DNA from: Streptomyces albogriseolus
Lineage (GTDB): Bacteria; Actinomycetota; Actinomycetes; Streptomycetales; Streptomycetaceae
Direction: 5' to 3'
NCBI GenBank assembly: GCA_014650475.1
Contig: BMVA01000028.1
Coordinates: forward strand, 1 to 64,000
Length of the DNA: 64,000 nt
Position 1 is the stretch's first letter. Each line of letters begins with the position of its first letter. The notes beneath the pieces are model-generated. The model worked only from the letters and a program-made list of their open reading frames with translations. It was not told the origin of the DNA and did not search any database. Shown here piece after piece: positions 24,295-51,888 of the stretch. The translations under genes were made by a program, and so were the position numbers.

Positions 24295-26567
<2,273 letters not shown>

Positions 26568-26922
26568 GCCTAACTCCCCTATTACTGGCCCTTGCACAGA
26601 TCCACACTTCGCGGACCCGGGTCAGACCTCACCCCCCAACGGTTGGGGGCGTGCGCCGGAACGCGTCGACCGCGGCTGAATGTATCTGTCCAACTGCCGT
26701 CTGCAACAGGTCAATCGGACGAGAAATCTGGACGCCACCGGTCCGGAATGTGGCAAGAATTCGCCAGAATTCAGGGCAAGTCGGGCCGGGCAAAGGAGAC
26801 AAAAGCCGCGAAAGGAGCCCGCACTTTGGCTACATCCAGTCGGGTCTGCGGCAGGAATTCAGGGTTCTCGATCAACAGATCGGGAGCGCGTTCCCCAACT
26901 CTACCGCGCTCAATCCCATGGA
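26568..26922. other. long AT-richer region upstream of the cold-shock gene
   Basis: About 350 bp without a credible gene, lower in G+C than the flanks. It probably contains the cold-shock promoter and a long structured leader, as is usual for csp mRNAs. Short frames here lack Streptomyces codon bias. I could not fix the promoter. Confidence 0.5.
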
Positions 26923-26957
26923 ATTGCCCCCTCCGCTTCTCTCACGGAGGGGGCAAT
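26923..26957. terminator. terminator of the thrC-like/sulfur-carrier operon
   Basis: A perfect 13-bp stem ATTGCCCCCTCCG / CGGAGGGGGCAAT with a 9-nt loop, 41 bp beyond the stop of the sulfur-carrier gene (minus strand). The flanking A/T bases give it a weak U-tract in that direction. Confidence 0.85.
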
Positions 26958-26997
26958 GGCATAAACGCTCGGTAACGGTCATTACCGAAGGTAATGA

Positions 26998-27273
26998 TCA
27001 GCCTCCGGCGACCGCCGGGATGATCGACACGCCGGCGCCCTCGGGGGTGGCCGTCTCCAGACCCTGCTCGAAGCGCACGTCGTCGTCGTTGACGTAGACG
27101 TTGACGAAGCGGCGCAGCTTGCCCTGGTCGTCCAGGACGCGGGCGGCGATGCCGGTGTGGTTCTTCTCCAGGTCCTGGATGACCTCGCCGAGGGTGGCGC
27201 CCTCGGCGAGGACCTCGGCCTTGCCGCCGGTGTAGGTGCGCAGGATGGTGGGGATGCGGACGGTGACGCTCAC
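26998..27273 (-). CDS. MoaD/ThiS-family sulfur carrier protein (CysO/MetO-like)
   Basis: 91 residues with a ubiquitin-like fold. It begins MSVTVRIPTILRTYTGGKAE and ends IIPAVAGG; the C-terminal Gly-Gly is the site of adenylation and thiocarboxylate formation. It closely resembles M. tuberculosis CysO as I remember it (NVTVSIPTILR start, VNDEDVRF core, VAGG end); here VNVYVNDDDVRF is the same core. GTG at 27273 with GGAGG upstream. It lies 64 bp after the thrC-like gene in the same SAM-controlled transcript, so it is probably the sulfur donor for that enzyme. Confidence 0.93.
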   Translation of the reverse strand: MSVTVRIPTILRTYTGGKAEVLAEGATLGEVIQDLEKNHTGIAARVLDDQGKLRRFVNVYVNDDDVRFEQGLETATPEGAGVSIIPAVAGG

Positions 27274-27337
27274 TTGAAACCTCCGGTCAGGATGAATAGC
27301 CAGGGGGCGCGGGGCTGTGGTCGGTGTGCGGCCGGCG

Positions 27338-28627
27338 CTAGACGAGCCCGGCCTCACGGAACGACTCCAGGCTGGGCCGGATGGTCGCCGTGAGCCCGGT
27401 CCCCGCCACCGCGTCCAGCGTCTTGAGCCCGTCCCCGGTGTTCAGCACGACCGTGGTGAGGGACGGATCGAGGACGCCGTCCTCGATCAGCTTCTTCGTC
27501 ACGCCGACCGTGACACCGCCCGCGGTCTCCGCGAAGATCCCCTCGGTGCGCGCCAGCAGCTTGATCGCGTCGACCACCTGCGCGTCGGTGACGTCCTCCA
27601 CCGCGCCGCCGGTGCGCCGGGCGATGTCCAGCACGTAGGGGCCGTCCGCCGGGTTGCCGATGGCCAGCGACTTGGCGATGGTGTCCGGCTTCTGCGGGCG
27701 GACCACGTCGTGCCCGGCCTTGAAGGCGGTGGACACCGGCGAGCACCCCTCGGCCTGGGCGCCGAAGATCTTGTACGGCCGGTCCTCGACGAGCCCGAGC
27801 CTGATCAGCTCCTGCAGCCCCTTGTCGATCTTCGTGAGCTGCGAGCCGGAGGCGATCGGGACGACCAGCTGGTCGGGCAGGCGCCAGCCGAGCTGCTCGC
27901 AGATCTCGTACGCGAGGGTCTTGGAGCCCTCGGCGTAGTACGGCCGCAGGTTGACGTTGACGAAGCCCCAGCCCTCGCCGGCCGGGTCGCCGATCAGCTC
28001 GGAGCAGAAGCGGTTCACGTCGTCGTAGTTGCCCTCGATGCCGACGAGCTCGCCGCCGTAGACGGCGGCCATGACGATCTTGCCCTGCTCCAGGTCGTGC
28101 GGGATGAACACGCAGGAGCGGAGGCCGGCCCGGGCCGCGGCGGCGCCGACCGCGCCGGCCAGGTTGCCGGTGGAGGAGCAGGACAGCGTGGTGAAGCCGA
28201 AGGCGCGCGCGGCCTCCAGGGCCTGGGCGACGACCCGGTCCTTGAAGGAGTGCGTGGGGTTGCCGGAGTCGTCCTTGACGTAGAGGCCGCCGGTGACGCC
28301 CAGTTCGCGGGCGAGGTTGTCGGCCTGGACGAGCTTGGTCCAGCCCGGGTTCAGGTTGGGCTTGGTCGCCACGTCCGCGGGGACGGGCAACAGCGGCGCG
28401 TAACGCCAGATGTTCGCGGGACCCGCCTCGATGCGCTTGCGGAGCTCTTCGGTGTCGTGACCGGAGAAGTCGTAGGCGATCTCCAGCGGGCCGAAACACT
28501 CCTCGCAGGCGAAGACCGGGCCGAGGGGCACACGGTGGCCGCACTCGCGGCAGGACAGCGCGGCGGCGGGACCCAGGTCGACGGAGTTCGCGGTGTCGGT
28601 GGTGCTTGCAACAGTCTGCACAGCCAT
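27338..28627 (-). CDS. thrC: threonine-synthase-family PLP enzyme under SAM riboswitch (annotated ThrC; probably O-phosphohomoserine-dependent homocysteine synthase)
   Basis: 429 residues, fold type II PLP enzyme. An N-terminal zinc ribbon (CREC at 26-29, CEEC at 41-44) precedes the PLP lysine in PTHSFKDR (Lys129), the phosphate-binding SSTGNLAGAVGAAAA and the C-terminal GDGLKTLDAV. By homology it is threonine synthase, acting on O-phosphohomoserine. Three context facts point instead to methionine synthesis: an S-box SAM riboswitch in the leader, a CysO-like sulfur carrier downstream, and no hom or thrB beside it. I recall a report naming such a Streptomyces pair MetM/MetO; this should be verified. 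ATG at 28627; in-frame codons upstream lie inside the riboswitch. Confidence 0.85.
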   Translation of the reverse strand: MAVQTVASTTDTANSVDLGPAAALSCRECGHRVPLGPVFACEECFGPLEIAYDFSGHDTEELRKRIEAGPANIWRYAPLLPVPADVATKPNLNPGWTKLVQADNLARELGVTGGLYVKDDSGNPTHSFKDRVVAQALEAARAFGFTTLSCSSTGNLAGAVGAAAARAGLRSCVFIPHDLEQGKIVMAAVYGGELVGIEGNYDDVNRFCSELIGDPAGEGWGFVNVNLRPYYAEGSKTLAYEICEQLGWRLPDQLVVPIASGSQLTKIDKGLQELIRLGLVEDRPYKIFGAQAEGCSPVSTAFKAGHDVVRPQKPDTIAKSLAIGNPADGPYVLDIARRTGGAVEDVTDAQVVDAIKLLARTEGIFAETAGGVTVGVTKKLIEDGVLDPSLTTVVLNTGDGLKTLDAVAGTGLTATIRPSLESFREAGLV

Positions 28628-28646
28628 GGAGGCGAGGCCCTTTCTC

Positions 28647-28790
28647 CTCATCTTCCTCACGACGCACTTCGCCGTGAGACGGATTTGGCACCTTCCCTAG
28701 CCGGGAGCCTCGCCACGTCCGCGTGACAGGAACCGACTGGAGGGTTGCCGGGGCTTCATCGGGCCGTGTCCCTCTGCCCCTCTGGATGAG
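28647..28790 (-). promoter_or_regulatory. SAM-I (S-box) riboswitch
   Basis: On the minus strand the ~144-nt aptamer shows P1 (CTCATC at 28790-28785 with GATGAG at 28652-28647), the kink-turn AGAGGGGCAGAGGGA, the invariant GCCCGATGAAGCCC and CGGCAACCC core, a P3 hairpin, the 3' core GGTGCCAAATCC (28692-28681) and a P4 stem CTCACG/CGTGAG (28678-28673 with 28661-28656). This order and the presence of P4 indicate class I rather than SAM-IV. The 3' strand of P1 runs into the ribosome-binding purines (AGGAGAAAGG) 19 nt before the ATG, so SAM binding probably closes translation. Confidence 0.93.
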
Positions 28791-28928
28791 CGGTGTTCAG
28801 TTGTGCGCCGCGCGACCCCGAGATGCAGGGCCCGTCGGCGTTGTTCAAGACTGTAACCGAAGGCCCGGACGGCGGAGAGCGCCGTCCGAACCCCGAGATG
28901 GATCACCGGCCAGTGAGGAGCCCGGACC

Positions 28929-51811: not shown

Positions 51812-51888
51812 ACGGAACACCCGTCGTGGCATCACCTTCCTACTCGGATCGTCCGGCACGTTCCTGCCGGTAGAAGGGGACCATTCAC

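Follow-up and report, generated by a model that had tools for sequence, protein, structure and literature searches.

The metM-metO Locus

The window, meaning the whole stretch of DNA that was analysed, comprises 64,000 nucleotides of Streptomyces albogriseolus (assembly GCA_014650475.1, contig BMVA01000028.1, positions 1 to 64,000, forward strand). On its minus strand are arranged, in this order, a SAM-I aptamer, the gene metM, the gene metO, and a hairpin (Table 1). The initial annotation had recognized here an S-box aptamer, a threonine-synthase-family gene, and a ubiquitin-like carrier with a Gly-Gly end; all three were recovered by the Rfam and protein family models, and its coordinates and parts were right apart from the start codon and the details of the hairpin.

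Table 1. Features of the metM-metO locus in the window
Feature	Position	Strand	Basis
SAM-I (S-box) riboswitch aptamer, full length	28645-28792	-	RF00162 78.6 bits, E 8.4e-17
P1 5' strand CUCAUC	28785-28790	-	CTCATCCAGAG in 80/80 named loci, motif search (best 80 of 590)
P1 3' strand GAUGAG	28647-28652	-	AAGATGAG in 80/80 named loci, motif search (best 80 of 590)
Shine-Dalgarno-like purine tract UGAGGAGAAAGGG	28638-28650	-	duplex with 16S rRNA 3' tail
metM, ThrC-family PLP enzyme, 429 aa	27338-28627	-	TIGR00260 270.4 bits (cut-off 167.1); PF00291 224.7 bits
metO, ThiS/MoaD-like carrier, 91 aa, ends AVAGG	26998-27273	-	PF02597, NF041918, translation
Hairpin after metO, 14-pair stem, likely terminator	26923-26957	-	stem coordinates; 13 pairs Watson-Crick

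For comparison, a set of named loci was drawn from 590 confirmed relatives, of which the best 80 were taken, all in Streptomycetaceae; among the rows listed, the nearest named MetM proteins belong to S. cellulosae JCM 4462 (99%) and S. griseoincarnatus (98%). The gene metM itself is real, and only its listed GTG start at 28660 was abandoned, as this position falls within the aptamer. The likelier start is the ATG at 28627, an ATG being present at the start of the match in 75 of the 80 named loci (best 80 of 590). Another ATG, located inside P1, was rejected because the reading frame from there to the ATG of metM is not conserved across the named loci (e.g., L058 and L062).

A gap of 64 nt separates metM from metO in the window; at 20 of 79 named loci (among the best 80 of 590 relatives), the carrier match starts within metM, 4 nt short of its end. 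In S. lividans, both genes are given as one affected unit in the table available from PMC8079986 (Table 3). One transcript ending in one terminator had been proposed, of which the hairpin after metO is evident, and the folding of 26900-27000 around it gave z = -6.48; the single transcript for metM and metO and the terminator role of the hairpin are what we infer, the latter because the hairpin carries no U-run and the terminator pattern scan gave no entry there. Downstream of metO on the same strand, a cold-shock-like ORF (26364-26597, -) and a GroEL-like ORF (24295-26289, -) were named from their translations. The Rfam scan also placed an msiK RNA (RF01747, 56.7 bits) at 51827-51885 (+) of the window.

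The SAM-I Riboswitch Upstream of metM

The search with the SAM-I model that had been suggested was run, the Rfam scan covering the whole window, and it returned a full-length RF00162 match (model positions 1-108) scoring 78.6 bits, well over the gathering threshold of 44.4 bits; no further match to this model occurs in the genome (8.07 Mb, 66 contigs). The aptamer ends 17 nt before the metM ATG, and an aptamer lies upstream of metM in all 80 named loci (best 80 of 590). The 3' strand of P1 overlaps the Shine-Dalgarno-like tract, where UGAGGAG pairs most stably with the 3' tail of 16S rRNA (-9.4 kcal/mol); the metM ATG lies 16 nt beyond GAGGAG and 10 nt beyond AAAGGG. Judged by eye, P1 reads CCATC / GATGG in some other actinobacterial loci (e.g., L037, L039, and L052), and at L046, L049, and L053 the aptamer is followed by a hairpin with a U-run. 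A riboswitch of the terminator type was considered for the window and discarded, since no U-run follows the aptamer there, unlike at the latter three loci.

Translational control is the likelier mode in Streptomyces, a reading that draws on the overlap of P1 with the tract and on the riboswitch class, and to which the computed folding lends no support. The aptamer was absent from the free folding of 28590-28800 (z -0.36). Moreover, when P1 was blocked in the folding of the window leader, GAGG of the tract paired with CCUC, and the computed unliganded state was no more open there. According to the passages available from PMC4365011, streptomycetes carry no SAM riboswitch at metE, metH, and metK.

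MetM and Threonine Synthase

MetM is claimed by the NCBIfam threonine synthase model TIGR00260 with a score above the cut-off (270.4 vs 167.1 bits), as would be expected if metM were a second ordinary threonine synthase that had come under SAM control by chance and the neighboring carrier served something else. Such a reading would also agree with the label of threonine biosynthesis attached to the S. lividans pair SLIV_16930-SLIV_16925 in the part of PMC8079986 available (Table 3), and with a cyanobacterial MetM homologue (51.6% identity to the Streptomyces sequence) that is reported to make threonine in passages of PMC12172450. A second thrC, the search for which had been proposed as a check and whose absence would have told against the initial reading, does exist: the genome holds two TIGR00260 matches over the cut-off, namely MetM and a separate canonical ThrC that sits in hom-thrC-thrB (hom and thrB named from translations).

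The two proteins differ consistently in their residues. An alignment was built that combined 140 rows of MetM, 137 of them distinct, with 28 rows of ThrC from the same phylum, the latter being the strain's own ThrC and 27 of 30 fetched loci; of the other three, L172 yielded no ORF under the script's rule and was dropped, and L194 and L199, which are MetM, were counted with the MetM rows. Different near-fixed residues (one in >95% of MetM and another in >90% of ThrC) occupy 27 columns, the uniformity of the MetM rows being partly built in because they were chosen by similarity. Next to the PLP lysine motif, MetM has V132 and V133 in place of G and M of ThrC, and further columns (MetM/ThrC) are N226/S, R228/N, Y231/R, G370-G371/S-A, and T403/D, together with the loop 259-262, which reads A-S-G-S in MetM and G-N-A-G in ThrC. 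Tyr231 is found in 140/140 MetM rows, and Arg takes its place in 28/28 ThrC rows; Arg228 likewise faces Asn in 28/28, and G-N-A-G is equally complete (28/28), with Tyr231, Arg228, and A-S-G-S occurring in 138 to 140 of the 140 MetM rows per column. The corresponding segment is S-x-N-[PS]-x-R-x-E-G in five ThrC structures and N-x-R-P-x-Y-x-E-G in the MetM profile, so that, compared with bacterial ThrC rows and structures, MetM has neither the canonical segment S-x-N-x-x-R-x-E-G nor the G-N-A-G loop (the plant ThrC 1e5x stands outside the loop comparison). In ThrC, the substrate and cofactor phosphates are presumably bound by this Arg (R160 in the Thermus enzyme) and by the loop G-N-A-G, and K129 of MetM is, by its motif, taken to be the PLP lysine. 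Near its N-terminus, MetM also carries the cysteines C26-x2-C29 and C41-x2-C44 in the alignment.

Judged by this residue pattern, MetM is not a ThrC. Set against the separate ThrC in hom-thrC-thrB, the 27 near-fixed differences including the Arg-to-Tyr exchange, and the pairing of MetM with a carrier gene, often with a SAM riboswitch as well, a second ordinary threonine synthase is a highly improbable identity for metM. The near-fixed residues would, meanwhile, offer a simple way to correct the annotation of proteins claimed by TIGR00260.

Distribution and Conservation

At E 1e-80 or better, MetM was detected in 108 of 296 genomes of a phylum draw and in 199/199 genomes of a genus draw, with one match in each of the latter save G455, which has two. 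RF00162, counted as presence per genome under stricter filters, was found in 197 of the 199 genus-draw genomes, two matches being read for G387, G392, and G397 and one in the others; of the two genomes without it, one is 79% complete and the other is split into 1140 contigs. Beyond the strain itself, 29 loci of the phylum draw were taken, best first, from 107 genomes with a match. The aptamer lies upstream in 22 and MetO downstream in 28 of these 29 (best 29 of 107), and no aptamer appeared at L038, L040, L041, L043, L044, L045, and L050 even at E 0.5. Among the named loci, MetO follows metM in 79/80 (best 80 of 590), and at the sole exception, L112, 76 nt of contig are left.

Retention of ThrC beside MetM was assessed in 60 of the 99 MetM-bearing genomes outside the genus (completeness >= 95%, G135 left out). 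At least two TIGR00260 matches at 1e-40 or better were obtained in 59 of the 60, the second being fragmentary or split between contigs in some (e.g., G017, G055, and G111), which supports a division of labor between MetM and ThrC with one possible exception, G274 (99% complete; L034 / L199), where MetM is the only ThrC-family match at 1e-40. This genome would be accommodated if MetM were bifunctional, acting as a homocysteine synthase with thiocarboxylated MetO and, in its absence, as a threonine synthase or deaminase. The second ThrC-family match kept in all the other genomes of the sample speaks against it, as does the Tyr that replaces, in every MetM row, the presumed phosphate-binding Arg of ThrC; even with the activities that the passages of PMC12172450 report for a Microcystis homologue on its side, bifunctionality of MetM is improbable.

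Two mobile origins of metM were also rejected. For phages, 28 pattern matches in viral contigs included none confirmed as a relative, and the best of 11 phage records aligned over 92% of the query with 34% identity. For plasmids, identity above 60% was reached by a single record of the 135 from the plasmid collection, one that spans 11.85 Mb.

Other Predicted Routes to Homocysteine

The strain also encodes MetX, which passes NF047917 (540.8 vs 475) and falls short of TIGR01392 (453 vs 500), MetY (NF005872, 804.5 vs 703), MetB (NF005871, 682.9 vs 513), and a cystathionine gamma-lyase (NF005758, 532.6 vs 440). MetY adjoins MetX, the two lying side by side at C1:586295-588708 of the genome. A second way to homocysteine is thus predicted, and the MetM route may be redundant in this strain; with MetX, MetY, and MetB present, a metM deletion mutant need not be a methionine auxotroph unless metX is also removed.

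Across the genus draw, MetX was detected in 54/199 genomes at E 1e-60 (the match in G391 being partial), and the curated cut-off of TIGR01392 was passed by 0/199 genus genomes and 0/14 control genomes (6 of the 14 "ring"). The presence of MetM in 199/199 versus MetX in 54/199 fits a core homocysteine route for MetM. As read from the tables, MetX lies near a contig end and MetM centrally in several single-contig genomes, which does not hold for G304, G375, G383, and G396.

The Sulfur Carrier MetO

MetO passes the ThiS model PF02597 (62 bits vs 22.5) and, more narrowly, NF041918 (61 bits vs 60). Among PDB sequences, MetO comes closest to 3dwg chain C, which we take to be mycobacterial CysO, and 4n6e_B was matched as well. 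It is one of four PF02597 carriers in the genome, the others being CysO-like, ThiS-like, and MoaD-like (the last two labels given by reading), and the CysO-like carrier lies close to the single Prok-JAB match of the genome and a partial ThrC-family match.

Dependence of MetM on its neighbor can be questioned at one locus, L035 (G204), which keeps aptamer and MetM and has no MetO in the 1.5 kb of flanking sequence retrieved at each end. G204 has three ThiS-family proteins, one of them 67% identical to the CysO and 52% to the MetO of the window strain and adjoining cysteine-synthase-like and JAB-like ORFs (named from translations). This arrangement would suit a MetM that uses free sulfide in the cell, with MetO dispensable or shared with CysM; as MetO accompanies MetM nearly throughout the phylum-draw and named loci (28/29 of the best 29 of 107, 79/80 of the best 80 of 590), we regard such independence as quite improbable.

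The C-terminal tail of MetO varies. Of 78 readable ends in the named loci (best 80 of 590), 52 are Gly-Gly, 23 are Gly-Gly plus one Cys (L072, L084, L087, L090, L092-L094, and 16 other named loci), and 3 carry two or three other residues. All 134 readable ends, which combine the named and phylum-draw loci with 28 near loci of the genus, comprise 101 Gly-Gly, 25 with one Cys, and 8 others, the Cys share varying with the sample. At the DNA level, 21/23 of the Cys tails are GGCTGCTGA and 49/52 of the plain ends are GGCTGA (best 80 of 590). Because of this near-uniform tail DNA, a three-base duplication can explain the repeated origin of the Cys without selection, and the tail was therefore set aside as an adaptive trait. 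On a quick MetM tree of 107 rows, the Cys label requires 15 changes, at least 7 of them forced by starred branches, and it is also clustered (0/500 shuffles as low). Outside this tree stand L129, L035 and L112 (both without MetO), and the 28 loci L144-L171, whose metO genes all (28/28) end in plain Gly-Gly.

If MetO must end in Gly-Gly for thiocarboxylation, the carriers with an added Cys need trimming. It is conceivable, at rather low probability, that they are trimmed, most simply by the Mec-type protease that belongs to the cysteine route, or that the terminal Cys carries the sulfur as a persulfide; were Mec-type trimming true, cysteine and methionine synthesis would be coupled.

Proposed Function and Comparison with Known Systems

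We are confident that this locus is the Streptomyces metM-metO operon, which would make homocysteine from O-phosphohomoserine with sulfur from MetO under SAM control through P1 and the overlapping tract. MetM, a PLP-dependent member of the threonine synthase family, would take O-phosphohomoserine from the threonine branch, and MetO thiocarboxylated on its C-terminal glycine would deliver the sulfide to yield homocysteine, which methionine synthase would then methylate. With the 3' strand of P1 running into the ribosome-binding tract, SAM at high levels would, by stabilizing this helix, reduce how much metM, and probably metO too, is translated. Thiocarboxylated MetO is reportedly the sulfur donor in the 2024 work of Hasebe and colleagues.

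The operon matches the published arrangement, riboswitch included. Counted against it are the presence of MetX, MetY, and MetB, the lack of MetO at L035, the 7/29 phylum-draw loci without aptamer (best 29 of 107), G274, the folding result, and the threonine-making cyanobacterial homologue. MetM was identified as a homocysteine synthase in Streptomyces by Hasebe et al. (2024, Appl Environ Microbiol 90:e01247-24), as described in passages of a paper that cites it (PMC12172450); according to these, MetM turns O-phosphohomoserine into homocysteine, metO belongs to a sulfur carrier family, and a SAM riboswitch precedes metM of S. albulus. This is the report on a MetM/MetO pair to which the initial annotation had pointed, and the annotation's proposal of homocysteine formation from O-phosphohomoserine gains support from the same chemistry published there. 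The system is accordingly already known, having been described in this same genus, and the same activity is inferred for MetM of the window strain by analogy with S. albulus.

As described in those passages (PMC12172450), S. albulus shares with the window a ThrC-like enzyme, the carrier gene metO, and an upstream SAM riboswitch; the window strain has MetX and MetY besides. The S. lividans TK24 pair SLIV_16930-SLIV_16925, likened by its table description, has RF00162, found by Rfam search, upstream of a two-gene unit and is listed as RNA-seq validated (PMC8079986, Table 3). The passages available from PMC12452182 hold nothing on the metM/metO pair.

Three further systems invite comparison, and between the window locus and the MetM/MetO of S. 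albulus itself we know of no difference. The CysO/CysM/Mec route employs the same carrier family, and in this genome it forms a separate cluster (C8:324692-325941), where the CysO-like protein, 55% identical to MetO, lies beside a PLP-enzyme match; its CysO has two residues after Gly-Gly, whereas MetO of the window ends in Gly-Gly, and CysM acts on O-phosphoserine to give cysteine. In the HcyS-A/MetY route of Wolinella succinogenes, a protein thiocarboxylate is used to make homocysteine, as proposed for MetO, but MetY is of fold type I and acts on O-acetylhomoserine. Canonical ThrC, whose substrate is O-phosphohomoserine, belongs to the same family as MetM and shares the PLP lysine motif SFKDR; MetM is set apart from it by the near-fixed residue differences, the adjacent carrier gene, the SAM riboswitch, and a four-Cys N-terminal segment that is absent from the strain's own ThrC.
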